From Bordetella genomosp. 7 (lineage in GTDB: Bacteria > Pseudomonadota > Gammaproteobacteria > Burkholderiales > Burkholderiaceae_B), in assembly GCF_002261265.1 (NCBI RefSeq), contig NZ_NEVK01000004.1:124001-188000 (forward strand): a DNA stretch of 64,000 nucleotides. Reading direction: 5' to 3'. A program made the position numbers and the translations under genes. Every line of letters starts with the position of its first letter. Within the stretch, counting starts at the first letter, position 1. The notes beneath the pieces are model-generated. The model saw only the letters and a list, made by a program, of their open reading frames with translations, was not told where the DNA came from and ran no database searches. This document shows, in pieces, positions 22,691-45,701 of this stretch.

Positions 22691-22694
22691 GGCC

Positions 22695-25639: not shown

Positions 25640-28600
25640 CTAGCCTTCCAGCTGGGGTACAGGAGACACGTTGGCCTCGTGCGCATGACGGACTTGGCTG
25701 CGTGCGGCAGGGGCAGCCTGTCCATCTAATTCGATGCCGACCAGCTCGTGCGCGCCGGCCGGCTTGCCGGTGTGGCCGTTGGCCCGGAGGGCCTGGGCGT
25801 CGGCAGCGGCGGGGGCCTCGTGGCGCTCCAGAGCCTGGCCGTATACGCGCACAGCGTCCGCGCCGGCACTGCGCCAACTGCGGTTGTCGATCACCCATTG
25901 GCGACCCTTTCGTCCATGCTCCCGCCGCAGGTCTGGGTTGTTGACATAGGTACGTATTTTTTCCGCCAGATCTTCGATGCTGCCCTTCTGGAAGATCAGG
26001 CCGGTGGAGCCGTCATGAATGATATTGGCAAGCGCGCGCACGCTAGAGGCGATGACGGCCTTTTCTTGCGCGAGCGCCTCGAAAGGCTTCATGGGTGACA
26101 CTGTTTCGCACACTTCCCAGGGTTTGCGCGCGTAGACGATGACGTCCAGGATCGAGTAATAGCGGGCGATGTCTTCATGAGGCACCCGGCCGGTCAGGAT
26201 GACGCTGTCGCCGAGTTCCTTGGCAAGTTCCTCATGATTGCCATTGCCATCGCCAACCAGCAAGACCTTGAAGTCGAGCCCTTGCTGCAGCAGGATCCGG
26301 GACGCGGAAAGCAGATCGTCGAGGCCTTCGTAGTCGACAAATGAACCGATGTATCCGATGACCGGTGTACCAGGTGAAATGCCGATGGCCGATGCCAGGG
26401 CCTGGTCGCGTTCGCAGGGCACGAACTTCTCGGGGTCTACGCAGTTCGGAATCAGGGTGATATGGCCGTCGGGCACTCCGCGTCCCGTCAGCTCGGTCAT
26501 CATGTCGTCGGTCAGGGTGATCAACGCCTGCGCCTTGGAGAAAGTGAAGTTCTCCAGTTCCCGGATGCGCTCGATCAGGTCGGTCTTTTCGCCGGAGGTG
26601 TCGCGCGACTGGTGTACCAGTTCCCAAAGCCCCGATACCTCGTAGACGAAAGGCAGGCCGGCCCGCGTGGCGGCCAGCATGGCGGGCAGCGCCGTCAAGT
26701 AGGTGGATCGGCCATGGACGAGGGTGGGGCGCTCCTGCACGAGCACCTGGTAGAACTCGTCCGCCATTGACAGCATGTATGCCAGTTCGCTGGCCCGCAT
26801 GCGGTCTTCACCATTGAAAATTCGTCGGTAATTCACGCCCTGGATAACATCGACGGCCGGAAACGTAAGCAGGCGGTTCGCCGATTTGATGTCCTTGGGA
26901 AACCCGGGGCGCGTATACGGCCGGATGTCCCAATCGCTTTGCGTGATCCCGGTGATGAGCCCATGTGCCCGCGTCGCATAGCCGCCGGACAGGTGCGGCA
27001 GACTGCTGTGCAGAAAGTACACGGAGCGTCGTTTCGATGTCGGCAGGATCGGGTTCTGCTTGCCCTGGTGGCGCGCAGCGTCGAAGAGTTCGCGGAATAT
27101 CGCGAGTTCAGTCGACAGCGGACGGTGGCGCGCGCGCAGGGCGGACGGATTGAGCGCCTGCAGGAAGGAGCCGTCCGAGGCCAGCTTGGCGCGCATCGTC
27201 TGGCGCCGTATCTGGCCGATGTCGGCAGCGAATTCCTTGACGGTGGTGTTCCAGGTGCGATTGTCCAGCACCCAGCGGCGGGCGTTTTCTCCGAGGGTAC
27301 GGCGCGCCTGCTCATCGGTCAGGTACCCTGCCAGTTTGCCAGCCAGGTCGTCCACGTTTCCGCTCTCGAACAGCACACCGTTGACGTCGGGCTGCACGAG
27401 ATCCGTCAGTCCGCCCACGTCGGCGGCGATCAGGGGCTTGCCCGCAAGCATGGCTTCGATCGGCTTGATGGGCGAAATCAGTTCGGTTACGGGCTGGGAA
27501 CGGCGGGGGAAGGCGCAGACGTCGATGGCTGTATAGATCCTGGGCACGTCAACATACGGAAGCCGGCCCGGCGTGACGAGCCAATCGGCGATGCCATGGG
27601 CTTCGGCGCTTCGGCGCAGTTCGGCGATGGCGGGGTCCGCATCGCTGGCCATTGTGTTGCTGCCCCCTACGAGCAGCAGCCGGAACTCATGGCCCAGGGA
27701 TTTCAGCCGCGCGCAGGCCACGACGAGATCTTCCAGTCCTTCGTAGGAGGCAAAGGTGCCCACATAGCCGATGACCAGCCGATCGACGGGGATGCCCAGG
27801 CGCAGTTTCATCGACGGGTCCACACCGCCGGAAGCGAAGGTCTCGGGGTTGCCGGCGCTGAGCAGCAGGCCGACATTCTCTTCGGCCACGCCGCGGTTCA
27901 CCAGTTCATGCTTCAGGCGCTCGGACAGCGCGTAGACGCGGTCGGCCGATTTCGCGAGCGTGGATTCGATTTCCCGGTCCAGCGCGTAATCGAAGGTTTG
28001 CGCATGGGCGGGGTCCTTGGAGGCCTTGGTGATCTCCCAGAAACCGCGGATATCGTAGAAGTAGGTCAGGCCGAGCGCTTTGGCCGCACGATAGGCGGGC
28101 AGGGCGGTGACATAATTGGACGCGGCAACCACGGTGGATGGCGCCAGCTCGAGCAGCTTGTCGATAATGGCATCCGTGGCGCGCTGCAGGTATTCGGCCG
28201 TCTGCAGCCCGGCCCTGTACTTGGCGCTCTTGCGCAGCGGCTTGGGAATCTGGTGATAGTGCACTCCGTCGATCTGCACGGCCTTGTCCGGCGCAGGGAT
28301 GTTGCCGTGCGACACCATGTCCCTGGGGTAACCCGGACGCGTCACAACGTGCACGTCGAAGCCTTCGCGCGTCAGCGCGCGGGCAATCTCGTGGGTGCGC
28401 ACGGCATAGCCGCCCGTAGACAGAGGAAGCGCGTTATGGGCAAAGTAGACTACGCGGTTCGGCACCGGCGAGACGGATGCCAGGCTTTGCTCTACCACGG
28501 GTACATCGTTGAACAGACCCAGCACATTGACCGGATGACGCTGGATATTGCGATAGAACGGCGTGCGGCGTACCGCCGCGTCGCCTTCGTAGCGTGCATA

Positions 28601-29824
28601 CAGGTCCTGCGCCACGCGGTACGCGGCGGAGACCTTATTGGAAAATATGGCGGCCCAGAAACACCCTCGCAACACTGGCTCGTCTTCCGAGATTTCGCGG
28701 GCCAGCCGACTTAGCTGGAACTCTTCTTCGTGCAGGCCCTGCGCCCGGAACACCTTGCCGACCAGCAGATAGTTCACTGCCTGCTGCATGCCGCGCGAGC
28801 GGGATAGCTTGCCAATTAAGTGGTGTACCTGGGCGTTGTCGTGGTTGGCCAGCGCGGCCTGCACCTTGGCCAGCCAATCGGGTTTGAGCTTGATGGGATC
28901 GATCGTGGCCAGGCTGGCCAGGCCGTCTTCCCAGTGCTTGCGGATGCCCAGCTTCTTCGAGGCACGCCGGCGGCGACCGTCGCGCAGGACCGCATAAAGC
29001 GCGAGCGGCAGCTTGAGAAAGCCTTGCCATGACTGGCTGGCCTGCACAAATGCGGCGCCGATGCGGTAGGAGTCTGTCTGGTACACCGAGTTCAGCGTGG
29101 TCTCGAGGCGCCAATTGCGGTCCAGCGCCGCATCCAGTGCCTTTTGCAGCTTGCTTTCCTGTGAGACGGCGCGCGAGGCGGCTGCCTCGACCAGCTGCAC
29201 TTCCGATGTAGCGGAGACCTGCGATTTTGCCCGTTGCCAGCTGCGCAGGGCCACGGTGATCTTTTGCTGGCGTTCGTCGAAGGCGGCGGCGGAAACCGCC
29301 GCGACACGATGCCAATCGATTTCACCGAGCTTGCCCTCGACGCCGCCGCCGATGCACAGCAACTCGCCTTCTTTATAGTCGAGGAAATGCAGAGCCTGCA
29401 GCGCAGCGAGGGACGCGCAGACAGGATAGGGTGAAATCGCAGGCAACCTGAGGAGCAGGAACGCGCTTTTTCGCACGCGTTCTGCCACCCGCATGATCTG
29501 TTGCGCGGCGACCTCGCTGTTGGGGTCGCTGCGCGTGATCACGACGGCGTCAAACTCGTGCAGAGGCTTGTCCGACTGGTCCAGGCTTTTGGTAGTGGTG
29601 AACTTGAGGGTTGCAGAGGTTCGGCTGAAGGCCTTGGCCAGCGGATGCGACTTCATCCCGACGAACAGAACGCGGGAGCCATCCAGTGCGGTTGCCACAC
29701 TGCGGTCGAACTCGGCCAACGCGCCGATGTGGGACAGTGCTAACAGCGCGTGGCAGTCCGATCTGCTTATATCCAGCAGGCCTGGATTTTCAATCGGCAT
29801 ATCATGCGAGGTAGTTCCGCTCAC
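25640..29824 (-). CDS. Giant bifunctional glycosyltransferase with two GT4 domains
   Basis: 1394 aa from a GTG at 29824 with GGAG five nt upstream; ATG 29800 is the alternative. The first 140 residues contain a Rossmann-like strand (SRVLFVGMKSHPLAKAF). An alpha-helical linker follows to about 450. GT4 domain 1 (about 455-840) opens with YFAHNALPLSTGGYAVRTHEI and carries GYVGTFASYEGLEDLV and SPIKPIEAMLAGKPL. GT4 domain 2 (about 935-1320) opens with YFLHSSLPHLSGGYATRAHGL and carries GYIGSFVDYEGLDDLL and SPMKPFEALAQEKAV. A tail rich in Ala and His ends the protein. Two retaining transferases in one chain could polymerise a two-sugar capsule repeat. One donor may be UDP-ManNAcA from wecBC. Confidence 0.85.
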   Translation of the reverse strand: MSGTTSHDMPIENPGLLDISRSDCHALLALSHIGALAEFDRSVATALDGSRVLFVGMKSHPLAKAFSRTSATLKFTTTKSLDQSDKPLHEFDAVVITRSDPNSEVAAQQIMRVAERVRKSAFLLLRLPAISPYPVCASLAALQALHFLDYKEGELLCIGGGVEGKLGEIDWHRVAAVSAAAFDERQQKITVALRSWQRAKSQVSATSEVQLVEAAASRAVSQESKLQKALDAALDRNWRLETTLNSVYQTDSYRIGAAFVQASQSWQGFLKLPLALYAVLRDGRRRRASKKLGIRKHWEDGLASLATIDPIKLKPDWLAKVQAALANHDNAQVHHLIGKLSRSRGMQQAVNYLLVGKVFRAQGLHEEEFQLSRLAREISEDEPVLRGCFWAAIFSNKVSAAYRVAQDLYARYEGDAAVRRTPFYRNIQRHPVNVLGLFNDVPVVEQSLASVSPVPNRVVYFAHNALPLSTGGYAVRTHEIARALTREGFDVHVVTRPGYPRDMVSHGNIPAPDKAVQIDGVHYHQIPKPLRKSAKYRAGLQTAEYLQRATDAIIDKLLELAPSTVVAASNYVTALPAYRAAKALGLTYFYDIRGFWEITKASKDPAHAQTFDYALDREIESTLAKSADRVYALSERLKHELVNRGVAEENVGLLLSAGNPETFASGGVDPSMKLRLGIPVDRLVIGYVGTFASYEGLEDLVVACARLKSLGHEFRLLLVGGSNTMASDADPAIAELRRSAEAHGIADWLVTPGRLPYVDVPRIYTAIDVCAFPRRSQPVTELISPIKPIEAMLAGKPLIAADVGGLTDLVQPDVNGVLFESGNVDDLAGKLAGYLTDEQARRTLGENARRWVLDNRTWNTTVKEFAADIGQIRRQTMRAKLASDGSFLQALNPSALRARHRPLSTELAIFRELFDAARHQGKQNPILPTSKRRSVYFLHSSLPHLSGGYATRAHGLITGITQSDWDIRPYTRPGFPKDIKSANRLLTFPAVDVIQGVNYRRIFNGEDRMRASELAYMLSMADEFYQVLVQERPTLVHGRSTYLTALPAMLAATRAGLPFVYEVSGLWELVHQSRDTSGEKTDLIERIRELENFTFSKAQALITLTDDMMTELTGRGVPDGHITLIPNCVDPEKFVPCERDQALASAIGISPGTPVIGYIGSFVDYEGLDDLLSASRILLQQGLDFKVLLVGDGNGNHEELAKELGDSVILTGRVPHEDIARYYSILDVIVYARKPWEVCETVSPMKPFEALAQEKAVIASSVRALANIIHDGSTGLIFQKGSIEDLAEKIRTYVNNPDLRREHGRKGRQWVIDNRSWRSAGADAVRVYGQALERHEAPAAADAQALRANGHTGKPAGAHELVGIELDGQAAPAARSQVRHAHEANVSPVPQLEG

Positions 29825-29965
29825 TTCGACTCCGTGTATGTCAACAACCGGTGAAACTGCGCAGCGCGGCCGGTTGGGCACTAAAGGCAAAAACGCTAAA
29901 GCGAGCCGACTGAGCTGATGCAGCTGAAGGCGGCTCGCGAATGTAATGAAAACAACAAATGCGGC

Positions 29966-31231
29966 TTACTTGTGCAGCAGCCCTACGGCGTCGATGACGA
30001 CCTTGTCTTCGTAGCGGGAAAAATCCACTTCCTTGAACGGCGAGTGCTTGACCAGCAATGCCACGACATCGGCGCGCTCTACAGCCGCTTCAGGTGACAC
30101 CAGTTCGCCAGCCAGGTTGGCAGGTTTTTCCTCGATATAGGGCTCGCACAGCAGGATCCTGGCTCGGGTCTTGGCATGCAGCCTCTCGGCAATATGCATG
30201 GCCGGGCTTTCGCGCAGGTCGTCGATATCCGGCTTGAATGCGAGTCCGAGCAGGGCGACGGTGACATCCTCTTCATCTTGGCCAGCCACGACTTTGCTGT
30301 GAATCGCCGCGAGGATCTGCGCGGCTACCCAGTCGGGCTTGCCATCGTTTACTTCACGGGCGGTGCGAGTTATTCGCGCCTGCTCGGGAGTTTTGCTGAC
30401 AATGAACCAGGGGTCTACGGCGATGCAGTGACCGCCAACGCCTGCGCCCGGCTGCAGGATATTGACTCTTGGATGGTGGTTCGCTAGCTGGATCAATTCC
30501 CAGACATTAATGTCAAGCTTGTCGCAAATGAGCGAAAGCTCATTTGCGAACGCGATGTTCACGTCGCGGAATGCGTTTTCCGTCAGCTTCGACATCTCAG
30601 CCGTGCGCGCGTTCGTTTCGAGCAACTGGCCCTGCACGAAAATCTGGTAGACGCTTTTGGCTTTCTGAGCCGAAATATGGTTGATGCCGCCGACGATGCG
30701 GTCGTTCTCGACCAGTTCCCGGACCACTTGGCCAGGCAGCACGCGCTCTGGGCAGTAGGCGACGTAGACGTCGCTTTCGACGCTGCCCTGCAATGGCAAC
30801 TTCAAGTCGGGCCGCAGCTCGGACAACCACTGGACCATTTGTTCCGTCGTGCCGACCGGAGATGTCGATTCCAGAATAATGATGTTGCCCGTGTTCAGCA
30901 CCGGCGCAATCGCTTCGACCGCGGCCCGGATATACGAAACGTCGGGCTCGTGATCATCCTTGAATGGAGTAGGGACGGCGATAAGAAAAGCGTCGGCTGG
31001 CTCCGGCTTGGTGGTCGCGCGCAGATAACCTTCTGATACGACCGATTGAACAATGCGTTCCAGACCGGGTTCGATAATGTGGATACGTCCACGGTTGATG
31101 GTGTCAACGGCGTGCTGATTGATGTCGACGCCGATGACCTTTACCTTGCGGGACGCGATCATCGCGGCTGTTGGCAGGCCAATGTACCCGAGTCCGATGA
31201 CGGACACCGTTTGGGTGGAGTTGTCATTCAT
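29966..31231 (-). CDS. wecC: UDP-N-acetyl-D-mannosamine dehydrogenase
   Basis: 421 aa, matching WecC (about 420). The N-terminal NAD motif is VIGLGYIGLPTAAMIA. Family blocks PTPFKDDHEPDVSYI and ESTSPVGTTE follow, then YCPERVLPGQ. The catalytic Cys near residue 267 is in GAGVGGHCIAVDPWF, and LLGLAFKPDIDDLRESPA is near 330. It oxidises UDP-ManNAc twice to UDP-ManNAcA. It lies 6 nt after wecB. In the capsule locus it most likely supplies a uronic-acid sugar to the repeat unit. Confidence 0.93.
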   Translation of the reverse strand: MNDNSTQTVSVIGLGYIGLPTAAMIASRKVKVIGVDINQHAVDTINRGRIHIIEPGLERIVQSVVSEGYLRATTKPEPADAFLIAVPTPFKDDHEPDVSYIRAAVEAIAPVLNTGNIIILESTSPVGTTEQMVQWLSELRPDLKLPLQGSVESDVYVAYCPERVLPGQVVRELVENDRIVGGINHISAQKAKSVYQIFVQGQLLETNARTAEMSKLTENAFRDVNIAFANELSLICDKLDINVWELIQLANHHPRVNILQPGAGVGGHCIAVDPWFIVSKTPEQARITRTAREVNDGKPDWVAAQILAAIHSKVVAGQDEEDVTVALLGLAFKPDIDDLRESPAMHIAERLHAKTRARILLCEPYIEEKPANLAGELVSPEAAVERADVVALLVKHSPFKEVDFSRYEDKVVIDAVGLLHK

Positions 31232-31237
31232 TTGTGT

Positions 31238-32377
31238 TCAACCTTGTTTACCAGGGGAGGAGGCGAGGATCGCTTCAACGATGCGTATCGCAGCGCGGCC
31301 GTCCCCATAGGGGTTATGCGCCAGCGCCATGCGTTTGTAACTTTCTGGGTGATCGGCCAGCTCGCTGACGCCGGCGATGATTCGTTCCACGGAGGTGCCA
31401 ACCATCCGAACCGTGCCCGCTTCGACGGCTTCTGGGCGTTCGGTGTTGTCTCGCATGACCAGCACCGGTTTTCCCAGCGAAGGAGCTTCTTCCTGTATGC
31501 CGCCCGAATCGGTAAGGATGAGATAGCTCCGCTGCATCAGGTACACGAATGGCAGATATTCCATCGGCTCGATCAGGTGCACATTGCCCAGCCGGTTGAG
31601 CAGGCGATGCACCGGTTCGCGAACGTTGGGATTCAGGTGGACCGGGTAGACAAAATCCATATCCGGGTATTTTTCGCTCAACGCGCGTATGGCTTCGCAG
31701 ATATTCTGGAAACCATCGCCGAAGTTTTCGCGACGATGCCCGGTAATCAGCACGATGCGGCTGTTCTTCGCAAGAAAAGGGTATTGCGCGTGCAGTTGTT
31801 CCTGCAATGCACGATCCTGGCTGGCCTTTTCCTGCGTGGCGAGCAGGGCATCGATGACTGTATTGCCGGTAACCCTGATCGTGGAGTCGTCCACGCCCTC
31901 GTCGAGCAGATTGCGCCGCGCCTGTTCCGTTGGCGCAAAGTGCACGCTGGCGAGCCGGCCGGTCAGTTGCCGGTTGGCCTCTTCGGGCCAGGGCGAGTAA
32001 ATATTGCGAGTGCGCAGACCCGCCTCGACGTGGCCGACCGGAATACGCGCATAAAAAGCGGCAAGCGAGGCCGCGAGGGTGGTGGTGGTGTCGCCGTGAA
32101 CAAGGACGTAGTCCGGCTGGAAATTCTGCAGGACGTCGCGCATGCCTTCGAGGACGGTGCTGGTGATACCGTACAGGTCTTGTCCCGGGCGCATGACGTT
32201 TAAATCGTAGTCGGCCTTGATGGAAAACAGGTCCAGTACCTGGTCAAGCATTTGCCGATGCTGACCCGTGACGCAAACCCGGGACTGAATGGCCTTTTCT
32301 GCCACCAATGCGTTTACGACCGGCGCCATTTTGATTGCCTCGGGCCGCGTGCCGAATACCGTTAACACCTTCGTCAT
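31238..32377 (-). CDS. wecB: UDP-N-acetylglucosamine 2-epimerase (non-hydrolysing)
   Basis: 379 aa, full length. The signatures are [16 protein letters not shown] at the N-terminus, [56 protein letters not shown] and [20 protein letters not shown]. It interconverts UDP-GlcNAc and UDP-ManNAc in the cytoplasm, giving the substrate for WecC. It is probably the first gene of the long leftward wecB-to-kpsS operon, with a 338-nt AT-rich leader region upstream. Confidence 0.95.
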
Positions 32378-33076: not shown

Positions 33077-34423
33077 TTATATTATTTTGGATAATATTTC
33101 CAGCGTACGTGTCAGCTGGGATTCAGAATGCAGGCAACTGATAAAGAATCGCAGCCGCGCTGTCTGTTCCGGCACGGCAGGGTACAGAATCGGCTGCACA
33201 TTTATCTGGTGTTCGAATAACGCGGCCGACAGGCGCGCGGCTTTCAGCGAGCTGGCCGTAATCGCCGGCACGACTGCAAGCCCGGCGCTGCTTCCCGTAT
33301 CGATGCCCGCTGCTCTGGCGTGCTGCAGGAAGAACCTGCCGCGCGCCTGCAGGGCGGCCACCCGCTCCGGGACTTCCTGCATCCTGCGCAGCGCCGCCAG
33401 CGATGCGGCGGCGACGGCTGGCGGCATCCCTACGCTGTACAGGAAGCCGGGCGCCAGGAATTTCAGGTGCTCGACCAGGGCGGCTTCGCCGGCGATGTAG
33501 CCCCCGCAGCCTGCCAATGTCTTGCTGAGCGTGCCCATCCAGATGTCTACGTCCTTGCCGGCCAGGCCAAAGTGCTCGCGTATGCCGTACCCCCGCTTGC
33601 CCATGACGCCCAGTGAATGGGCTTCGTCCACCATCAGGAACGCCTTGTGGCGGCGCTTGATCTCGACAAAACGTGGCAAATCGGGAAAGTCGCCGTCCAT
33701 GCTGTAGAGACCCTCCAGCACGATCAGCACGCGCTCGAACTGATGGCGCTGCTCGTCGAGTATCGCGTCCAGGGCGGCCCAGTCGTTGTGGGCGAAGGGC
33801 AGGCGGCGTGCCCCGGATAATTGAGCGCCTTGTAATACGCTGTTGTGAATGAATTCGTCGTGTAGGATCAGGTCGCGAGGCCCGAACAGGTAGCCGATGA
33901 CCGACACATTGGTGGCGTGGCCGCTGACAAAAGCGACCGCGTCGTCGACGTCGTATAACTCGGCAAGCGCCTGCTCGAGCTCCCGGTGTATGGGCCTTTC
34001 GCCGGATACCAGGCGGCTGGCGGACACCGAAGTGCCATAACGCTCCATAGCCTCGCGGGCGGCGGCCTGTACGACAGGGTCGCCCGACATGCCCAGATAG
34101 TTGTAGCTGGCGTAATTGACGTAGCTCTTGCCGCCGATGCGGGTGTCGGCGCCGGCGGTACCTTCGTGCAGTTTGAAAAAGGGGCTGCGCACGCCCATGC
34201 GGGCGGCGCCCTCATTCATGATGCGCAGTTGGCGGTAGCCGGGGTGCATATCGAACCGATAGAACTCTTCGGAGATATTTCCCTTGCGTGCGGGTGCCAG
34301 CGGTACGGAACGGGAGCCCTGTTCCTGGCCCGCCTGGCGCAGTTTGCGCTGTAGCGCCTGCTGGATAAGTTTGTCCTTGAGGCTTGCGGATAAACCGGGT
34401 AGACCTTTTTTGGCTTGGCTCAC
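33077..34423 (-). CDS. wcbT: Alpha-oxoamine-synthase-like PLP acyltransferase (RkpG/WcbT-like)
   Basis: 448 aa fold-type I PLP enzyme of the AONS/KBL/SPT family, with an N-terminal extension of about 60 residues. Visible blocks are YVNYASYNYLGMSGDP, GTSVSASRLVSGERPIHRELE, DEFIHNSVLQGA, LMVDEAHSLGVMGKRG and GTLSKTLAGCGGYIAG. The Lys in the last block, near residue 300, should form the PLP aldimine. Such enzymes join an acyl-thioester to an amino acid with loss of CO2. The gene starts 5 nt after the polyketide synthase stop, which itself lacks a thioesterase. I infer that this enzyme takes the acyl chain directly from the synthase ACP and releases it as an aminoketone. RkpG (rhizobia) and WcbT (Burkholderia capsule) are the named relatives. 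Confidence 0.87.
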   Translation of the reverse strand: MSQAKKGLPGLSASLKDKLIQQALQRKLRQAGQEQGSRSVPLAPARKGNISEEFYRFDMHPGYRQLRIMNEGAARMGVRSPFFKLHEGTAGADTRIGGKSYVNYASYNYLGMSGDPVVQAAAREAMERYGTSVSASRLVSGERPIHRELEQALAELYDVDDAVAFVSGHATNVSVIGYLFGPRDLILHDEFIHNSVLQGAQLSGARRLPFAHNDWAALDAILDEQRHQFERVLIVLEGLYSMDGDFPDLPRFVEIKRRHKAFLMVDEAHSLGVMGKRGYGIREHFGLAGKDVDIWMGTLSKTLAGCGGYIAGEAALVEHLKFLAPGFLYSVGMPPAVAAASLAALRRMQEVPERVAALQARGRFFLQHARAAGIDTGSSAGLAVVPAITASSLKAARLSAALFEHQINVQPILYPAVPEQTARLRFFISCLHSESQLTRTLEILSKII

Positions 34424-34428
34424 GATGT

Positions 34429-37400
34429 TTAGTGGATCATGCGTTGCTGGACGTCAACCGCGCCCGATTTGAGTTCATCGGCGAATTTGGCCAGGGCCTC
34501 CGCAGGCACCTCATCGGTGTGCCGCGCGGCAACTTGCTCGACCTGGGCCAGTAAGTTGTCCTGACCCGACGGGGCGTCACCTTCGTTACGCAGCAGCTGG
34601 ACCAGTCGCGCCGCCAGCTTGGTCAGCGTCGGACTCTCGTTAAGGGCCATGACCGGCAGGCGGATCCCGAAGCGGCCTTCCAGCGCCACGACCAGCTCTA
34701 CACCCATCAGAGAATCCAGGCCCATGTCGTAGACCGAGACGTCGGCGTCGATCTTGTCGGCCGGTACCCGCAGGATTTCACCCACTTCGGCCTTGAGCAT
34801 GTCGACGAACAGGGGTTGCAGGGCATCGTCGTCCAGCGTGGCGAGCAACTGGGCAATGTCGTGCGCGCTGCCGTCATCTTCGCCGGTGTCGCTGGCGCGG
34901 CGGGCCAGCAGGCTGAACTTGGGCGTGCCTGCGCTGGGCAGGAAGCGGCGCAGGGCGCGCCAGTCCAGCTCGAGCACGGCCAGGTCACTGGCGTCGGCCA
35001 GCAACATCGCTTCCAGCGCCTGTAGTGCGGACTCCGACGCCAGGGCGGCGCCTCCCATGCGGCTTTGCAAGGCGTCCTTGACCTTCTTGTTGCGGGCCAG
35101 GTAGCCGACGTCGTCGATGGCGCCCCAGCGCACGCAAGTGGCGGGCAGGCCCTGCGCGCGCCGTTGCCGGCACAGCGCCTCGAGGAAGGCGTTGGCCGCA
35201 ACGTAGTTGGCCTGGCCGGGATTGCCGAACAGTGTGGTGGCGGACGAGAAGGTGATGAAGAAATCCAGCGGCAGGTGGCGCGTGGCCGCATCCAGCCGCA
35301 TGGCTCCGACGACCTTGGGCGCCAGGACGCGTTCGATTTGTTCGGCAGTCGCGCCACGTACCAGGCCATCGTCGATCACCATGGCGGCGTGTACGACGCC
35401 CTTCAGGGGCGGCATGTCGGCGGCGAGTTGCTGCATCAGGTTGGCCAGCGCCTGGGCGTCGGTGACATCGCACGCCGCGGCGTGGACAGCCACGCCGCGA
35501 GCCTGCAACGCGGCCAGGGCTTGCTGCGCGGCTTCGGACGCAGGGCCGCTGCGGCTGACCAGCGCCAGGTGGCGCGCGCCGCGGTCGGCCAACCATTGGG
35601 CGGTGCGCAGGCCGAAACCGCTGAGCCCGCCGGTGACCAGGTAGGAGGCCTCGGCCGACAGGGCCAGCTCCGCCGGGTTGTCGGCAGGCAGGGCTGCATC
35701 GTGTGCGCACTGGATGCCATTGCGATACGTGACGACTATCTTGCCTATCTGGCGCGACTGCTGCATGTAGCGGAACGCGTCCACGATGTCATTGGCGTCG
35801 AATTCCTGGTAGGGAAGCGGATGCAACGCGCCCTCGGCGAACAGGGCCATGACTTCGCCAAACAGGCGCCGCGTCAGGGCAGGGCGTTCGTGCATCAGCT
35901 GGTCGGCGTCAATGCCGAAATAGCTGATGTTGTTGCGGAACGGACGCAGGCCTATGCGCGTGTTCTCGTAGAAGTCGCGTTTGCCCAGTTCGAGGAAGCG
36001 TCCGAAAGGCTTGAGCACACGCAGGTTGCGATTGATGGCCTCGCCTGCCAAAGAGTTGAGCACGACGTCCACCCCTTTGCCGCCGGTGTCGGCCAGTATG
36101 GCGTCGGCATAGGCGAGCGATCGCGAGTCATAAATGTGCTGCACGCCCAGCAGCCGCAGGAAATCGCGCTTTTCGGCGGTGCCGGCAGTGGCATAGATTT
36201 CTGCGCCACGCCATTGCGCATACTGGATGGCGGCAATGCCCACGCCGCCTGCGGCGCCGTGTATCAGTACCTTTTCGCCTTCTTCGAGTTGGGCAAGGTG
36301 ATGCAAGGCATAGTAAACCGTGAAGAAAGTGCTGGGTATGGTGGCTGCCGCCTCGAACGAGATGCCCTGCGGAATGCGCGCGATGGCGTTTGCTGTGGTG
36401 TGCACGCGGTTGGCAAAGCTGGCGGGACCGAACCCCACTACCGCGTCGCCCGGCTGGTAGTCACCGCCGGCGTCCGGGCCTGCACGCAAGACTGTGCCGG
36501 CGAACTCGAGCCCCAGCGTCGGGCCCGCAAAGCCGCTTTCGATGGCTTCATCGGACAGCAGGCCCAGGGCGTACATCACGTCGCGGAAATTCAGCCCGGT
36601 GGCGTGGACGGCGATCTCGATTTCATGGGGGGCTAGTTCGGCCGGCTCGCAGGTCTCCCAGCGCAGGTTGCGCAACTGCCCCGGGAACTCGAAACCCAGG
36701 CGCATGCGGCCCACACTGCCGGGCGCGTCTTTTTCTGTTGCAGGGCGGGGGACCGTGCGCAGGCGCGGTGCGTAACGGTGTCCTTGGGGCGTGAGAGCGG
36801 CTTCTTGCTCGGCATCGGGCCACCTGAGCTCGCGTTCCAACGCATCCAGCACGGCGGCCGTGGGCCTCGCGTCCGGCAGGTCCAGCAGGCGCACGGCGAA
36901 CTGGGCTGCCTCATTGATCATGGTGCGGCCATATCCGCGCAGCGCCGCGTCGCCGGGCGTGGCGGTGGCGCCTCCGGGAGCCAGGTGCTGGGCAGCGCCC
37001 GCGGTGACGAGCCACAACGTCGCCGTACCGCCGTCACGTTCCAGCGCCTGCGCGGCGCCGGCAGCCAGCGCGCAACGGCGTACCTGCACAGCCAGCAAGG
37101 CCTGGGGGTCGGAGACATCCTGTGCGTGTGCCAGGCCATCCAGGTGCACAATGGCGTCGACCTGGCCCAATCGGGCCTTGGCCTGGCGGTAGGCCGAAGC
37201 AAATGCCGCGGGGTCTGTATCGCGTTGAATGTGGGTACGATGGCCCTGGGCCGCCAACCGCTCTGACAGGGCGTGAGCCAGCGCGGTTTCGGATTCGTCG
37301 GCGCTGGCCAGCAGCAGCAATCCGGAGGATGTCGTGGGCGAGGCGTCGGCGGTTGAAGTGCTGCCGGCTGTGGTCTGTGCGACGCCCACAAGCAGGTAGG

Positions 37401-40400
37401 GGCCACTGAGCGTGTCGGGGCTGAACTCGGCCAGCACAGTGACCGGGCACCCGTGTTGCGCCAGGGCCTCTTGCCAGAAGTGGGCCGTGTACTGGGACGA
37501 GGCTTTTCCGCCGTCGCTGGTGACGGCAGTCCACCAATCGGGCCGCGCGCCAGCCACCACGTCGAGCCAGCTTACCGGGTGTGCGCCGACCAGCACCAGC
37601 GTTGCGCCGGATTTCAGAAGGCCGCACGCATATTCGAGCATTTTCCGGGCATCGTCGGCGTATGCGGCGTCGGCGTGCAGGATGACCAGGTCGTGCCCGC
37701 GCATGGCAAGTTGGTCCGGAGTGCACGGCCGCGGTTCAAGCTGGCTGCAGCTCGCATCCGGGTAGCGTTCGAGCAGGCGCTGGGCGCGCTCGTGTGCTTC
37801 GGCACTGGGCGCGGCATAGTGGTAATCGGCTACGCCGAAGTCCAGGGCGCCGCAGCAGTCTTCGGCGAATGCCGGGGCATGGGCGCTGATTTCCAGGACT
37901 CCCAGGCGCGCGCCGGGCGGCAGGGCCGTTTGTGCGCGGGCGAGCAGCGTGCGCAGCGCGCCGCCAAGCTGTTCACGCGCCTGCGCCCCCAGAAGATGCC
38001 GCAACAGAGCAGCCGGAGAGGCCGTGGGAGGGCAGACGGCGTTCATGTCGGCGCGGCCTTGCAGCAGGTTCTCCAGGTGCAAGCCCACGCGACCGACCGC
38101 ATGTACTACGTGCGCGTAATCGGGGTATTCGCGCACCAGGCTGTTCCAGATATCGACGACATCTGGCGTTGCAGGCCCTTCTTCTGTGAATGTCCAACCG
38201 GTGGGCGCGCGTTCCAGCAGGCCTGCCTGGGCGGCGCGTTCCAACAGATGATCCAGCAGGGCGGATGCGTCCGGAGCAGTCTGGCGGCAACGCTCTACGG
38301 CTTTGTCATACAGGTGCGGGCCATTCTGCGCCAGCCCGCGCAAGGCGCGTACGGCGTAGCGGTCGCACAGGCTGTCGAGCAGCGGCTCGATTTCTTGCGC
38401 ATAGCATGCGTGCGTGCCCTGTTGCGCGGCCAGGGCAACGGCGCTGGCAAGCAGGTCTGACGCGGCGGCGGAGTCGAGCGTGCTGAGGGCGCTGCGAGGG
38501 TCGTGCGGATGCGGGCTGGGCACGCCCAGTTCGTCCAGGAAGTCGAGCGTTTCGCCGTAAGACTTGGCCAGGCGTATGCCGCGGAAACGCACGTCGTGCA
38601 CCGCCGCGATCTGTATGCCGGCAGCGTCGTACAGGGCAAACTCGGCAGTCAGCGAATGAGGGGCGCGCCGCAGCAGCCGGGCGCGCGCATAGGCGGGCGC
38701 GCCAGCGTCGGTGCGCAGCGAAACGCGGCCGATCTTGGCCGGCACGAAGGCCACGCCACGACTCATGGCAGGATCATCGCGCAACAACTGGATAATCAAC
38801 TGGAATGCATTGTCGAGCAACGCAGGGTGCAGGTGGCTGCGCTCCAGGTCGCGCTGCGGCATGTTGTCGGTTTGGAGCGCGGCCACGACGGTATCGTGCG
38901 ACAGCGTCCAGCCTTGCTTGATGGCCTGGAAGGCTGGCCCGTATTCCAGGCCCACGGCCTGCGTCAGCAACACATGACTGCTGGCAGTGAAGTCGGGCGC
39001 GCGCTCGGGGCATTCGATCGCCGGCTCGGCCAGCAGCGCGGGCCCGGCCTCGCGCAGAATGCGAGCCGTCGCGTGCAGCGTCCAGGGCTCGGTGCTGCCG
39101 ACATCCTTGGCCACGATGCGCAGGCTGCCATCCGCAGCATCGAGCGTGGTGCGCAGGCGTTTCGACGGACTGGCCGCCAGCAGCAGCGGTGCGCGTATTT
39201 CGAGTTCTTCGAGTTCCAGGTACTCGGCCGGTTGCCACTGCGCGGCGGCCGCCAGGGCAATCTCGGCAAAGCCCGTGCCGGGAAACACCGTAGCGTCGCC
39301 CACGACGTGGTCGGCCAGCCACGGGTACAGCGCCGTGTCGAGCTGGTTGTCCCAGACGCCATCGTGCTGGCGTACCGGATAGCCCAGCAAAGAGTGCACT
39401 TTGGCGCGCTGCAACTGGCCCAGCCCTTCGGGTGTGACGGGATGCCAGTGGCGCTCGCGCTGCCACGGATAGGCGGGAAGCGTGATGTGGCGGCCTTCCC
39501 AGGGAAAGAGATCTTGCCAGCTGATCTGCGCGCCGCTGCACAGGATCTGCCCGGCTGCGTCACGGATCTTTGCCGGCTCGTCATTGCCGCGGCTTGCGGT
39601 AAGCAGCACACGGCCCTTGCGGTCGGCGCCAGCCAGGGCGTCATTGATATACGAGCGCAATACCGGGTGCGGGCCGATTTCTACGTAAATGTTCTGGTCG
39701 CCTTGCACCAGGGCGTCGATTGCCTGCTGGAACTGCACGGGCTGGCGCACGTTGCGCCACCAGTATTCCGCATCCAGGCCCGTGCCGTCGATGGGCTGAC
39801 CGGTAACGGTGGAATAGAACGGTACGTAACCGCTTTGTGGCGCCAGGTTTGCCAGCGCCTTGCGCAAACCGGACCTGATGGGGTCCATCGCGGCGCTATG
39901 GAAGGCGTAGTCGAGGCCGAGCCGTTTGTAGAAAATCTGGCGTTCGGCCAGCACGGCCTCGATCGAGGCCATGGCCGCAGGGTCGCCGGCCAGCGTTGCG
40001 CCTCGACTGCTGTTGTAGCCAGCCACGCACACCGCTTGGGTCAATTGCAGTTCGGCAAGCAGCGCCTGGGCGGTCGCGCCGTCGACCCCGACTGCCGTCA
40101 TGCAACCCTGGCCTTTGGTGGTGCCTTGCAGGCGGCTGCGATGGAAAATGACCTGTACCGCGTCGGTCAGCGCAAGGGCGCCGCAGGCCCAACCCGCGGC
40201 GACTTCACCCACGCTGTGGCCCACCACGGCGGTGGGCTGGACGCCACGTTGCGCGAGCATCCGGGTAATGCCAACCTGGATGGCAAACAAGGCCGGCTGC
40301 GCAATTTCGGTGCGTTCGTACTGATTGGCAATGTCGGTGCGCGCCAATTCGTCGGCCAGCCGATAGCCGGCCAGCGGTTCAAAGCAGTTATCGATTTCGT

Positions 40401-42075
40401 GCACGGCTTCGGCAAAAACCGGCTCTGCCAGCAACTGGCGCCCCATGCCCGCCCATTGCGAGCCATTGCCGGAATACACAAAGACCGGGCCTTGGGCGCC
40501 GGGTATGGCGCTGCCCGTGGCCACGCTGTATTGCGCGGCGTCGCCGTCGGCGAATTGGCTCAGCGCCTGGGCGACGGTTTCGCTGTCGTTGCCATAGACG
40601 ACGGCGCGTTCCGCGTGCCATTCGCGGCGCATGGCGGAGTGATAGGCCACGTCGTACAGCGTGCGCGCCGGTTGGCCGCGCAGCACGCCGGCCAAGCTGT
40701 GCGCAGCAGCCTTCAAGGCCTCCGGCGTCTTGCCCGACACCACCACCGGCACTGCTGCGGTGCTTGCCAGCTTATCGGCCTGCTGGTCATTGCGCGCAGG
40801 AGGGCTTTGCAAGATGACATGGGCGTTTGCGCCGCCGAATCCGAAAGAATTCACGCCGATGGTGAGCGTGCCCGTGCGGCGCAGCGGGTAATTCTGTTGC
40901 GTGATCTCGATGTTCCAGTCCTGGAAATCGATGGCGGGATTGAGCGTGCGGATGCCTATGGTGGCCGGCACGGTGCGATGCTGCAGGCAGTAGATGGCCT
41001 TGACGAGCCCCGCCACGCCGGAGGCGGCTTCCAGATGCCCCAGATTGCTCTTGACCGACCCGATGGGCAAGGGGTTGCCGGGGCCACGAGGCTGGCCAAG
41101 CGCTGCGCCGATAGCGCGGGTTTCAATGGGATCGCCGACGGCGGTGCCGGTGCCGTGGGCCTCCAGGTAGTCGATCTCGGTCACGGGAATGCCCGCTTGC
41201 TCGTACACCTGGCGCATCAGCGCGATCTGGGCGTCGGCGTTGGGCACGGTGAGCCCCGACTTGCGTCCGTCAGTGTTGACGGCGCTGCCGGCGATCACCG
41301 CCAGGATGTTGTCGCCGTCGGCCAAGGCCTGGTCGTAATCTTTCAGCAGGAACAGGCCGCCGCCCTCGGACCGCACATAGCCGTCTCCAGATGCGTCGAA
41401 CACCTTGCAACGGCCGCCCGGCGACAGCATGGAAGCCTTGGAAAAGGTGATGAAGCCGTAGGGGTGCAGGTGCAGGCTGACGCCGCCGGCGATGGCCATG
41501 CTGGTCTCGCCGGTGACAATGGCCCGGCAGGCCTGATGCACGGCAACCAGTGATGACGAGCAGGCGGTGTCGACGGCCATGCTGGGGCCGTGCAGATCGA
41601 ATACATACGACAGGCGGTTGGCGGCAATGCTGGACGTATTTCCAGTTGCCATCGAGGCGTCGACGGCGCTCACATCGTCGGCCATGCGATAGGCGTAGTC
41701 GGCGCTGGCAATGCCGATATAGACACCGCAATCGCTGCCGCGCAGCGCCGAGGGACGCATGCCTGCGTGGTCGATGGTTTCCCAGCACAGCTCGAGCAAC
41801 AGGCGTTGCTGAGGGTCCATCAGCGCCGCTTCGCGCGGCGAAATGCCGAAGAAGTGCGCGTCGAAGCCCGACACGTCGCCGATAGACCCCGCAGCAAAGG
41901 TATATGCGGTGCCAGGGTGGTCTTTGGCCGGGTGCAGATAAGGGTCTTGCGCCCAGCGATCTGCTTCTACCTGCGTGACGAGATCACGACCGTTGAGCAG
42001 GTCTGGCCAATACCGTTCAGTATCGGTTTGCGGAAAACGGAACGAAAACCCCACGACGGCAACGCGCTTTGCCAT
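34429..42075 (-). CDS. wcbR: Iterative type I polyketide/fatty-acid synthase of capsule locus (RkpA/WcbR-like)
   Basis: 2548 aa. KS: active Cys in DTACSSS near 172, His in EAHGTGT and NLGHLEAA. AT: GHSVGE near 620 and YAFHS, a malonyl-like specificity motif. DH: DHVVGDATVFPG near 925, with the partner Asp in HPALLDNA. About 1290-1560 is a methyltransferase-like region whose SAM motif has degenerated to LEISAHAPA. ER: HGAAGGVG near 1942. KR: TGGLSGFG near 2150, Tyr in GQANYVAAN. ACP: DMGLDSLMG near 2454. About 70 residues follow, with no thioesterase. This full reductive set should make a saturated chain by repeated use, like fungal highly reducing PKS or animal FAS. AAGGAAG precedes the ATG. 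It forms a two-gene unit with the PLP enzyme. Confidence 0.92.
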   Translation of the reverse strand: MAKRVAVVGFSFRFPQTDTERYWPDLLNGRDLVTQVEADRWAQDPYLHPAKDHPGTAYTFAAGSIGDVSGFDAHFFGISPREAALMDPQQRLLLELCWETIDHAGMRPSALRGSDCGVYIGIASADYAYRMADDVSAVDASMATGNTSSIAANRLSYVFDLHGPSMAVDTACSSSLVAVHQACRAIVTGETSMAIAGGVSLHLHPYGFITFSKASMLSPGGRCKVFDASGDGYVRSEGGGLFLLKDYDQALADGDNILAVIAGSAVNTDGRKSGLTVPNADAQIALMRQVYEQAGIPVTEIDYLEAHGTGTAVGDPIETRAIGAALGQPRGPGNPLPIGSVKSNLGHLEAASGVAGLVKAIYCLQHRTVPATIGIRTLNPAIDFQDWNIEITQQNYPLRRTGTLTIGVNSFGFGGANAHVILQSPPARNDQQADKLASTAAVPVVVSGKTPEALKAAAHSLAGVLRGQPARTLYDVAYHSAMRREWHAERAVVYGNDSETVAQALSQFADGDAAQYSVATGSAIPGAQGPVFVYSGNGSQWAGMGRQLLAEPVFAEAVHEIDNCFEPLAGYRLADELARTDIANQYERTEIAQPALFAIQVGITRMLAQRGVQPTAVVGHSVGEVAAGWACGALALTDAVQVIFHRSRLQGTTKGQGCMTAVGVDGATAQALLAELQLTQAVCVAGYNSSRGATLAGDPAAMASIEAVLAERQIFYKRLGLDYAFHSAAMDPIRSGLRKALANLAPQSGYVPFYSTVTGQPIDGTGLDAEYWWRNVRQPVQFQQAIDALVQGDQNIYVEIGPHPVLRSYINDALAGADRKGRVLLTASRGNDEPAKIRDAAGQILCSGAQISWQDLFPWEGRHITLPAYPWQRERHWHPVTPEGLGQLQRAKVHSLLGYPVRQHDGVWDNQLDTALYPWLADHVVGDATVFPGTGFAEIALAAAAQWQPAEYLELEELEIRAPLLLAASPSKRLRTTLDAADGSLRIVAKDVGSTEPWTLHATARILREAGPALLAEPAIECPERAPDFTASSHVLLTQAVGLEYGPAFQAIKQGWTLSHDTVVAALQTDNMPQRDLERSHLHPALLDNAFQLIIQLLRDDPAMSRGVAFVPAKIGRVSLRTDAGAPAYARARLLRRAPHSLTAEFALYDAAGIQIAAVHDVRFRGIRLAKSYGETLDFLDELGVPSPHPHDPRSALSTLDSAAASDLLASAVALAAQQGTHACYAQEIEPLLDSLCDRYAVRALRGLAQNGPHLYDKAVERCRQTAPDASALLDHLLERAAQAGLLERAPTGWTFTEEGPATPDVVDIWNSLVREYPDYAHVVHAVGRVGLHLENLLQGRADMNAVCPPTASPAALLRHLLGAQAREQLGGALRTLLARAQTALPPGARLGVLEISAHAPAFAEDCCGALDFGVADYHYAAPSAEAHERAQRLLERYPDASCSQLEPRPCTPDQLAMRGHDLVILHADAAYADDARKMLEYACGLLKSGATLVLVGAHPVSWLDVVAGARPDWWTAVTSDGGKASSQYTAHFWQEALAQHGCPVTVLAEFSPDTLSGPYLLVGVAQTTAGSTSTADASPTTSSGLLLLASADESETALAHALSERLAAQGHRTHIQRDTDPAAFASAYRQAKARLGQVDAIVHLDGLAHAQDVSDPQALLAVQVRRCALAAGAAQALERDGGTATLWLVTAGAAQHLAPGGATATPGDAALRGYGRTMINEAAQFAVRLLDLPDARPTAAVLDALERELRWPDAEQEAALTPQGHRYAPRLRTVPRPATEKDAPGSVGRMRLGFEFPGQLRNLRWETCEPAELAPHEIEIAVHATGLNFRDVMYALGLLSDEAIESGFAGPTLGLEFAGTVLRAGPDAGGDYQPGDAVVGFGPASFANRVHTTANAIARIPQGISFEAAATIPSTFFTVYYALHHLAQLEEGEKVLIHGAAGGVGIAAIQYAQWRGAEIYATAGTAEKRDFLRLLGVQHIYDSRSLAYADAILADTGGKGVDVVLNSLAGEAINRNLRVLKPFGRFLELGKRDFYENTRIGLRPFRNNISYFGIDADQLMHERPALTRRLFGEVMALFAEGALHPLPYQEFDANDIVDAFRYMQQSRQIGKIVVTYRNGIQCAHDAALPADNPAELALSAEASYLVTGGLSGFGLRTAQWLADRGARHLALVSRSGPASEAAQQALAALQARGVAVHAAACDVTDAQALANLMQQLAADMPPLKGVVHAAMVIDDGLVRGATAEQIERVLAPKVVGAMRLDAATRHLPLDFFITFSSATTLFGNPGQANYVAANAFLEALCRQRRAQGLPATCVRWGAIDDVGYLARNKKVKDALQSRMGGAALASESALQALEAMLLADASDLAVLELDWRALRRFLPSAGTPKFSLLARRASDTGEDDGSAHDIAQLLATLDDDALQPLFVDMLKAEVGEILRVPADKIDADVSVYDMGLDSLMGVELVVALEGRFGIRLPVMALNESPTLTKLAARLVQLLRNEGDAPSGQDNLLAQVEQVAARHTDEVPAEALAKFADELKSGAVDVQQRMIH

Positions 42076-42201: not shown

Positions 42202-42574
42202 TAAAAAAGATAAATGGCGAGCAGGAAAGTGCTGGCGTAAGAAATGCTGGCTTCGCCGGAAAAAATAAAGGCGACTTGCTTCGAAAGCGAAGCGAGGCGC
42301 CTATTATCACCATTTCATGGGTCAAACCAGATGGCAAGATTTTACAGTTTATTGGGGTTGACTCAGGCAACTCTGCTGCGTCGCAAAAATCAGATACAAA
42401 ACAGCGAGGGTGTCCGCATCTCTAATCGTTGCAAATTAGCCTTAATAATCGAATTGTTAGGCTAATCAGGGCGCACCAGGTGAAAGCACGAGTTACAGAA
42501 AACTACGTGCCGTGAATGACGTTACCGCACTTGAGTTTCTGCGACGATTCAAAAATTAATTCTGTTGCTGCCAA

Positions 42575-44835: not shown

Positions 44836-45411
44836 CTAAAGGTAACCGCCGGGGCTCGACGGCAGCCCGCTTTCGACGAAGTGACGATAAGCGGCGCGCC
44901 TGCCGGTATCGTCCCGGCCCATGGCCAGATATAGCGCATGGTGGTCCAGCATGTGCTGCGGAGTTACACCCAGTCGTTCCCGATAGCTCGACCACGGGTA
45001 GCTCGCCGGCGCTTTGACCAGGCCTGCGCGTACAGGGTTGAGCTCGATATAGCGGCAGCATTCCAGCAGGTATTTTTCCTCGTGTACCGCCCGTGCCTTG
45101 AATCGGGCTTCTCAGATCGAGCCGGTGGTGTGTTTTCGTGCGTTCCACCGGCAGGTAGCCGCTCTGGCAAGCCGCTGCATCAAGGCAGACAATGCGCGCG
45201 GATCTTGGGTAGGGCTCAGCAGCAGGTGTACATGATTTGGCATCAGGCACCACGCGTGTACGGCGATGCCGAAGTTGCGACTGAACAGGCGTAGGTTATT
45301 CAAGTAGGCGCGGTGATCGCCCGCCGACTCGAATACGATCTGGCGCCTGTGGCCGCGCTGAACGATGTGATAAGGAAGATTTGCGATGAGCAGGCGGGGA
45401 GGTCTCGGCAT
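44836..45411 (-). pseudogene. REP-associated tyrosine transposase (RAYT) with one in-frame stop
   Basis: The frame of 192 codons starts at ATG 45411 and ends at TAG 44836-44838. It is broken only by TGA at codon 100 (45112-45114). The protein is a Y1/IS200-like transposase. It begins MPRPPRLLIANLPYHIVQRG. The HUH metal motif is MPNHVHLLLSP (His60, His62). Past the stop come EARFKARAVHEEKYLLECC and RYIELNPVRAGLV, with the likely nucleophile Tyr121. In relatives the interrupted position is normally Trp (GSxWExRFKA), so one G-to-A change explains the TGA. It sits between REP clusters C and D. It may be inactive, or could be active if the TGA is read through. Confidence 0.85.
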
Positions 45412-45522
45412 GGGATGGCAACGGCGTGGACGAAGACCGACGATACCTATGCCAGTGGCTATAGCAAGACGAGGGATGGCGCTTTTGCCAGAGTGCAGTT
45501 GAGGCGCGTGGGTGCATGGGGT

Positions 45523-45701
45523 GGTGTCTGACACCCTTCGGGAGTCAGACACCGAGGGAAAGGGGGCGTGTTTGGGGGTGGTGCGGGCGGCGGTGGTGTC
45601 TGACACCCTTCGGGAGTCAGACACCGAGGGAATGGGGGCGTGTTCTGGTGTGGTGACGGGAGGCGAGGGCGGTGTCTGACTCCCGAAGGGTGTCAGACAC
45701 C
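45523..45701. repeat. REP-like palindrome cluster D (3 copies)
   Basis: Copies at 45523-45553, 45595-45625 and 45671-45701. The first two are direct and 72 bp apart; the third is inverted. The stem is GGTGTCTGAC with GTCAGACACC, an A-A mismatch, then CCC/GGG closing a TTC loop. The cluster lies just upstream of the RAYT start. Confidence 0.9.

Follow-up and report, generated by a model that had tools for sequence, protein, structure and literature searches.

Sphingoid synthesis by a polyketide synthase (PKS) paired with a pyridoxal phosphate (PLP)-dependent enzyme is already known. According to the portions of Peters et al. (2025, PMC12134224) drawn on here, Pseudomonas fluorescens MYb115 makes C24, C26 and C28 sphinganines by means of the PKS SgaA and the alpha-oxoamine synthase (AOS) SgaB, and these lipids are lost in both the sgaA and the sgaB mutant. 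PfSgaB has serine palmitoyltransferase (SPT) activity with acyl-CoAs and accepts L-serine almost to the exclusion of alanine and glycine. Ketone reduction by SgaC, a short-chain dehydrogenase/reductase (SDR), is a proposal of that study, as is direct transfer of the chain from the acyl carrier protein (ACP). The same source describes MYb115 lipids heavier by 154 Da, most likely phosphoglycerol-sphingolipids as judged by mass, and counts 6101 homologous clusters, among which Burkholderia is dominant; the string 'capsul' has 0 occurrences in its main text. It also draws a parallel with the fungal fumonisin and sphingofungin pathways, which work in a like manner and in which PKS-derived sphinganine analogues are made with a KDSR-type SDR.

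The association of such PKSs (rkpA, wcbR) with capsule genes predates the 2025 work (excerpts of PMC3908369). The rkp-1 region of Sinorhizobium meliloti (rkpAGHIJ) is described as making a lipophilic molecule, a possible carrier or anchor for the K-antigen, and the passages concerned (in PMC3557214 and PMC4881576) do not term this product a sphingolipid. In E. coli, KpsS starts the capsule on (lyso-)phosphatidylglycerol (PG), as given in parts of PMC7694667 and PMC10148158. Here we analyse a locus of Bordetella genomosp. 7 in a stretch of 64,000 nucleotides (the window; contig NZ_NEVK01000004.1, positions 124,001 to 188,000, from a 4.13-Mb assembly in 8 contigs) that carries an SgaAB-type gene pair and a set of ABC-transporter capsule genes. 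We lean towards reading the window as an ABC-transporter (KpsS/KpsC) capsule locus with a polyketide-derived sphingolipid anchor, in which an LtaS-type enzyme would supply the head group and KpsS would place the first sugar on it. What is new here is the proposed role as capsule anchor, together with an LtaS-type enzyme for the head group and a KpsS group to match. No earlier proposal that a sphingoid anchors a capsule turned up in the open-access literature of PubMed Central, a search that left subscription papers mostly outside.

The SgaAB-type pair of the window

The PKS gene (34429–42075, reverse strand) encodes an SgaA-type monomodular reducing synthase of 2548 residues with the order KS-AT-DH-(degenerate MT)-ER-KR-ACP. 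Ketosynthase (KS), acyltransferase (AT), dehydratase (DH), enoylreductase (ER), ketoreductase (KR) and ACP domains were detected by Pfam, and the KS motifs DTACSSS, EAHGTGT and KSNLGH, the AT motif GHSVGE and the ACP motif GLDSL are present. The protein ends 57 residues after the ACP domain and thus has no thioesterase. An earlier note on this DNA had described a complete reducing synthase without thioesterase and with a methyltransferase (MT) region; the other domains and the lack of a thioesterase hold up, and the MT does not. No S-adenosylmethionine motif pattern was found in residues 1200–1800 of the window PKS or in any of 90 homologues longer than 2000 residues; by its sequence the region between DH and ER is a degenerate relic, and a methylated chain made by an active MT is ruled out. 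In all 90 homologues the C-terminus lies 54–128 residues past the start of the ACP motif and the AT motif reads GHSVGE, and 83 of them carry DTACSSS exactly. The Swf PKS of sponge symbionts is described with altered DPQQR and HGTGT motifs and swfB/swfC partners (excerpts of PMC3908369). Assignment of the window PKS to a Swf cluster was rejected since both motifs are intact.

The PLP-dependent alpha-oxoamine synthase of SgaB type (33077–34423, reverse strand; 448 residues), similar to SPT, begins at a GTG 5 nt from the PKS stop codon. Among solved structures it is closest to AONS/KBL-type enzymes and SPTs, and it carries the PLP lysine (TLSK) and a DEAH motif; the placement and SPT/AONS family given in the earlier note are borne out. 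The top NCBIfam model, TIGR00858 (BioF), scores 334 bits, below its cut-off of 426. Among the matches listed, the closest SgaB proteins come from Bordetella genomosp. 4 and B. petrii (86%); the listing may omit records of the window's own genome. The SDR gene (13481–14260, forward strand, from an ATG in a frame open from 13382) encodes a relative of the SDR at the SgaC position and is a candidate for the 3-ketosphinganine reductase. NCBIfam returned general SDR models only, all below cut-off, so that KDSR membership was not obtained through family models.

MYb115 was compared with the window through a Pseudomonas putida locus (L117) instead of its own sequence. The MYb115 sgaA-start primer, as printed in PMC12134224, has a site in L117 with 0 mismatches, and the primers for the sgaA end and the sgaB end have sites there with 4 and 6 mismatches, located where expected. 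L117 has the same genes as the window, with identities of 69% for SgaB, 53% for SgaA, 59% for the SDR and 43% for the LtaS-like protein. The primer match and these identities together place the window genes among the SgaABC kind; the window has a reducing PKS that ends in an ACP without thioesterase, an adjoining PLP enzyme and an SgaC-type SDR. These genes very probably produce sphinganine. The route that the earlier note had outlined, a chain held on the ACP, condensed with an amino acid by the PLP enzyme and reduced by the SDR to a 2-amino-3-hydroxy lipid, matches the description of the P. fluorescens homologues (PMC12134224) and is hence not new as a kind; the SgaA/SgaB pair as new chemistry is ruled out by that publication. 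Unlike the published pathway, which is limited to SgaA–C, the window adds an LtaS-like enzyme and KpsS/KpsC, and its SDR–LtaS pair lies 19 kb off on the other strand. On the Pseudomonas plasmid pL21564-1 the SDR gene is the fifth after SgaB, which fits the tags of PfSgaC (RS19775) and sgaB (RS19800) if tags step by fives; by analogy, we infer that KpsC-like, GNAT and LtaS genes lie between sgaB and SgaC in MYb115.

Two SgaB relatives may be parts of larger enzymes. A Streptomyces gene (NZ_CP108162.1, 398667–399737) annotated as a bifunctional SDR/PLP-dependent enzyme matches SgaB at 41% and is perhaps a natural SDR–AOS fusion, and on a Planktothrix agardhii plasmid (NZ_LR882937.1, 30551–31729) a type I PKS annotation covers an SgaB-like sequence (50%), which may point to a PKS–AOS fusion.

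A putative phosphoglycerol transferase and capsule genes near SgaB

The neighbour of the SDR gene that the earlier note had pointed out, an LTA-synthase-like gene, overlaps it by 8 nt (14253–15749, forward strand). Its product, an LtaS/GacH-type phosphoglycerol transferase, has a hydrophobic N-terminal part and a sulfatase-fold domain (residues 218–496). All six solved sequences that it matches are GacH, lipoteichoic acid (LTA) primase or LTA synthase (E 4e-8 to 3.5e-4), with GacH the best, and the LtaS/GacH motifs T..EF and GDHxP are present (aligned as gantvrsef/gggtanmef and gdhip/gdhlp). This is the likely head-group enzyme. On the reverse strand, a KpsS-type transferase of beta-linked 3-deoxy-D-manno-oct-2-ulosonic acid (Kdo) with one PF05159 module (15756–17081) is followed by a KpsC-type beta-Kdo transferase with two (16976–19033), a KpsD/Wza-type polysaccharide export protein with Poly_export and SLBB domains (18976–20055), a KpsE-type protein (20121–21320), a KpsT-type ABC transporter ATPase (21236–21889) and a KpsM-type ABC-2 transporter permease (21911–22708). 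The KpsE-type protein has no Pfam match and is hydrophobic near both ends; its family adjoins KpsM/T elsewhere, and its assignment comes from clustering only. The group 2-like set (KpsS, KpsC, KpsM, T, E and D) is thus complete and resembles the E. coli group 2 capsule. Unlike in E. coli, the locus has its own sphingoid genes, and its KpsS groups apart from an E. coli plasmid KpsS.

Gene neighbourhoods were examined in 80 named loci, the best 80 of at least 525 SgaB relatives among 590 stretches (10-kb flanks; 51 are at least 21 kb), and in 36 loci with G labels from further genomes (stretches of 4 to 40 kb, own genome excluded, some ending at contig ends or short of full flanks); LtaS and SDR calls exceeded 200 bits each. 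SgaB has a PKS no more than 1.5 kb away in 77/80 named and 29/36 G-labelled loci, and in G697 at 2 kb in addition, a pairing that is not chance. LtaS, SDR, KpsS and KpsC were found in 35, 34, 32 and 21 of the named loci and in 9, 10, 9 and 9 of the G-labelled ones; the 51 long named loci have PKS in 50, LtaS in 32, SDR in 29 and KpsS in 26. Any Kps gene was seen in 45 of the 80, 31 of the 51 and 25 of the 36, counts of which some rest on KpsT, which unrelated ABC ATPases can match. Clustering of all genes without a preset list in 108 loci (27 of the 36 G-labelled, the 80 named and the window) returned PKS in 103 and SgaB in 94, followed by LtaS (42), SDR (39), KpsS (39) and KpsC (29). Nine weaker G-labelled loci had been excluded beforehand, among them G289a and G620, which do have a PKS beside SgaB, and the simple gene caller used for the clustering overlooked the window SDR.

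LtaS and SDR occur together in 37/116 loci and stand side by side on one strand in all 37. In G365, KpsC-KpsS-SDR-LtaS-PKS-SgaB form a single same-strand run whose ends touch within 5 nt. The plasmid pL21564-1 (L187) carries PKS, SgaB, PhyH, KpsC-like, GNAT, LtaS, SDR, KpsS, KpsC, phosphotransferase, KpsF and KdsB, of which KpsF and KdsB represent Kdo supply. This is a 99.7-kb mobilizable plasmid from poultry meat that bears sphingoid and Kdo-linker genes. L117 itself carries KpsS and KpsC. Small acyl-type transferases near SgaB vary by lineage (in the 108 loci, formyltransferase 13, GNAT 5, another GNAT family 3, CAT-like acyltransferase 5; one representative of each checked by Pfam, for example L145:11370–12143, L136, L140, L153 and L163) and may serve to cap the sphingoid at its free amine. 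In Pseudomonas paraversuta (L120:14577–17368) an incomplete LtaS-like stretch directly adjoins a KpsC-like gene, SDR and KpsS were not found in the locus, and the gene set looks partly deleted.

Co-occurrence was assessed in 399 genomes of the window organism's order, with SgaB counted up to E 1e-110, LtaS up to 1e-30, and PF05159. SgaB was found in 26 genomes, PF05159 in 49 and LtaS in 10. PF05159 is present in 19/26 SgaB genomes vs 30/373 others (p=5e-14) and LtaS in 9/26 vs 1/373 (p=5e-11), p-values that serve as a guide only, the genomes being related. PF05159 is present in 19 of the 22 genomes in which a PKS and SgaB are at most 1.5 kb apart. It was not found in G697 or in G494, G685 and G710, and no PKS was seen near SgaB in the latter three, of which G710 and G685 lie close to contig ends.

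The same gene families recur in rhizobia and Burkholderia. S. meliloti CP090106 has the order PKS-AOS-SDR-LtaS-like-KpsS, all members of which are in the window in a different order; the sequences are distant (SgaB 47%, LtaS-like 26%, SDR 29%). From this order we infer that rkpG, H, I and J are the AOS, SDR, LtaS-like and KpsS genes of CP090106, a record that holds no such names. The LtaS-like gene of S. meliloti Ak57 (L186:9267–10805) is missing from the record's gene table, in which pseudogenes are omitted, and the family alignment does not reach its first residues; the gene is perhaps disrupted in this strain. LtaS-PKS-LpxC-like-SgaB is the order in Burkholderia lata (L170), and SDR-LtaS-PKS-LpxC-like-SgaB-KpsDMTE that in Caballeronia p2; the wcbO-T genes are arranged in this way. 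The LpxC-like deacetylase gene between PKS and SgaB (L170:9013–9927; Caballeronia L188:17054–17980), whose family is found in 6/108 loci, sets these loci apart from the window, which has none there.

Sets without a PKS are seen on the Novosphingobium plasmids pLA5 and pP6W2 (sterol-desaturase-family gene, SDR, LtaS and KpsS; no PKS within the 27 kb shown), the latter also with KpsF and CMP-Kdo synthetase, and in Acidisoma (KpsS, KpsC, KpsD, T, M, E, LtaS, an SPT-like enzyme, SDR and a sterol-desaturase-family gene; no PKS within the 25 kb shown). Sphingomonads make sphingolipids by an ordinary SPT. These sets indicate that the constant parts are the sphingoid, LtaS and KpsS, not the PKS.

A KpsS group that follows the sphingoid genes

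The KpsS sequences divide according to the sphingoid genes. In a first tree of 62 sequences, one side held 12 of 13 SgaB-negative genomes of the order and the other held 49 rows from SgaB genomes or loci together with G671. The 13 negatives were those of the 30 SgaB-negative PF05159 genomes with a strong, whole, single-module match, 17 with weak or broken matches having been dropped beforehand. 'SgaB-negative' means none at the cut-off; the best matches are ordinary family members at 27–37% in 9 of the 13 genomes, and 4 have none at 1e-20. G671 has SgaB-like matches of at most 34%, but two SgaA-like KS stretches (55–56%, open frames of 550 and 577 residues); the tree thus exposed a genome that had been wrongly scored negative.

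Addition of RkpJ and of KpsS from Shinella, Methylobacterium, the Pseudomonas plasmid, two Novosphingobium, Acidisoma and an E. coli plasmid gave a 70-row tree with the same split (support 99/88; branch in 100% of bootstrap trees). A 72-row tree further includes G503 and G602, both missed by the gene caller, with G386 relabelled as LtaS-bearing. It separates 13 rows without sphingoid genes, one of them the E. coli plasmid, from 59 others (98/84; 98% of 200 bootstrap trees), and the window KpsS falls in the sphingoid-linked group. Of the 59, 55 have SgaB, and the rest are G671 (PKS sequence only), Acidisoma (SPT-like enzyme) and the two Novosphingobium plasmids, which have only SDR and LtaS beside KpsS. 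Of the order's 19 genomes with both SgaB and PF05159, 18 fall on this side, the exception being G650, a weak match. NEG_G424 is a long branch that adjoins the split; this genome has other PKS genes (40–47%).

Linkage alone does not explain the split, since the split persists when KpsS and SgaB are distant from each other: within a single contig they are ~640 kb apart in G572, 126 kb in G517 and 36–38 kb in G525 and G582. In G656, G445, G760, G645 and G447 they are on separate contigs, which in broken assemblies may still be near one another. One family, f1, spans the split, with G419 (without SgaB) on one side and G503, G572, G602, G690 and the window on the other. Within the sphingoid side are two branches, one in which LtaS is common (29/35 rows) and one in which it is rare (4/21).

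The proposed capsule anchor and its alternatives

In the pathway that we favour, SgaA would build the chain and hold it on its ACP, and SgaB would condense the ACP-bound chain with serine to 3-ketosphinganine, although its homologue was assayed with acyl-CoA. The SDR would reduce this ketone to sphinganine, a step that is a proposal for the homologue too. The LtaS-like enzyme would then move phosphoglycerol onto sphinganine, as suggested by its GacH/LTA-synthase family, its pairing with the SDR and the reported phosphoglycerol-sphinganine mass. With one long chain and a phosphoglycerol head, the product would mimic lyso-PG, the E. coli KpsS acceptor, and this resemblance together with the KpsS tree leads to the proposal that KpsS of the sphingoid-linked group places the first Kdo on it. 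KpsC would lengthen the Kdo linker, glycosyltransferases would add a polymer that probably holds N-acetylmannosaminuronic acid, and KpsMTED would export it. The rhizobial rkpAGHIJ and Burkholderia wcb genes would make this lipid too, and sphingomonads and Acidisoma would feed the same LtaS–KpsS step from an ordinary SPT instead of a PKS. The capsule link suggested by the earlier note thus gains support from gene order, co-occurrence and the KpsS tree, and falls short of proof.

We hold it an even chance that the statement extends to the whole proteobacterial KpsS branch: these bacteria would start their capsules on sphingoid phosphoglycerol lipids, mostly PKS-made and from an ordinary SPT in sphingomonads and Acidisoma, and not on lyso-PG; the rkp-1/wcb lipid would be this sphingolipid, and the host-protective sphingolipids of P. 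fluorescens would be capsule anchors or their precursors. If so, the lipid of rhizobial K-antigens (rkp-1) and of Burkholderia-type (wcb) capsules would have a name, a question that dates from the discovery of the rkp genes in the 1990s. PKS-made bacterial sphingolipids would gain a cellular job, and the KpsS sequence would predict which bacteria make sphingolipids. For the published pathway, the analysis names a candidate head-group enzyme.

Several observations weigh against the full chain. LtaS was not found in 12 of the 22 PKS-linked genomes with the window protein at 1e-3, nor in the 11 of them that were also searched with the S. meliloti protein at 1e-5; the 12 include G690, which shares its genus with the window, and G697 is a further such genome. 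Another head group or enzyme must serve there. A divergent rhizobial-type LtaS was considered for these genomes and rejected, as the S. meliloti protein matched only G386 among 25, which the window protein finds at 6e-28. PF05159 was not found in G427 and G472, which have SgaAB, LtaS and export genes, and neither PF05159 nor LtaS was found in G620 and G697. RkpJ falls in the KpsS branch mostly without LtaS, though S. meliloti has an LtaS-like gene. Within the DNA covered, 21/80 named loci have no Kps, LtaS or SDR; 15 of these span less than 21 kb, which leaves 6 of the 51 longer loci. The LtaS family is also wider than the capsule setting, for G574 and a Roseomonas marmotae plasmid carry an LtaS-like gene without Kps or SDR neighbours, and LtaS is not next to the SDR in Shinella, Methylobacterium and Acidisoma, while in Novosphingobium the two are on opposite strands. 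In the window itself, the SDR–LtaS pair is on the opposite strand from SgaB at a distance of 19 kb, and between SgaB and WecB there is a site that resembles a terminator, in a region where such sites are not clearly above shuffled sequence. There is also a problem of topology. LtaS-type enzymes act outside the inner membrane. The lipid-linked capsule polymer of E. coli is assembled at the cytosolic face of that membrane (parts of PMC10433991), so the lipid would have to flip back.

The alternative that fares best, to which we give about one chance in four, is that free sphinganine and phosphoglycerol-sphinganine are lipids of the membrane, or secondary metabolites with effects on hosts or the envelope, with the capsule genes mere neighbours or co-regulated. 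The P. fluorescens system is read as free sphinganine lipids in the portions of PMC12134224 considered, and in G332 (SDR at 162 bits only) and G620 a PKS stands beside SgaB with no Kps or LtaS in the 40-kb stretch covered. Yet KpsS, KpsC and export genes dominate the neighbourhoods, the KpsS type tracks the lipid genes even at a distance, and L117, which bears the MYb115 primer site, has KpsS and KpsC. Less probable still, and in our view doubtful, is a PKS-derived sphingoid that does serve as capsule lipid while KpsS transfers Kdo straight to sphinganine, or to a different head group, with the LtaS-like enzyme decorating the Kdo linker or polymer with glycerol phosphate in the fashion of GacH. 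GacH, which acts on streptococcal polysaccharide, is a phosphoglycerol transferase and the best solved relative, and the 12 LtaS-less genomes would be accommodated. LtaS stands beside the SDR in 37/37 of the surveyed loci with both, however, and accompanies KpsS and SDR on sphingomonad plasmids with no PKS in the stretch shown, and a MYb115 lipid of phosphoglycerol-sphinganine mass is reported (PMC12134224). That the PLP enzyme instead yields an aminoketone from glycine or alanine, as BioF/KBL do, for another capsule-related lipid and no sphingoid is very improbable: although TIGR00858 scores best, if below cut-off, the enzyme is 69% identical to L117 SgaB, and PfSgaB uses almost exclusively L-serine (PMC12134224).

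The capsule anchored in the proposed way would draw on further genes of the window, all on the reverse strand: a glycosyltransferase (22695–23744), a large protein with two glycosyltransferase modules (25640–29890), and a WecC-type UDP-ManNAc dehydrogenase (29966–31231) and a WecB-type UDP-GlcNAc 2-epimerase (31238–32377), both above curated cut-offs. The same run contains a 607-residue protein (23765–25588) with no Pfam match at 1e-5. Upstream of the PKS gene, a hairpin followed by a T-rich stretch (~42270–42300) was seen by eye and is not listed by the terminator scan. A NusG-family gene, possibly RfaH-like, occurs in 9/108 loci (for example L136:15954–16475), and the window hairpin is perhaps a site for such a factor. 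An IS200-like transposase gene lies upstream of the cluster (45112–45624).

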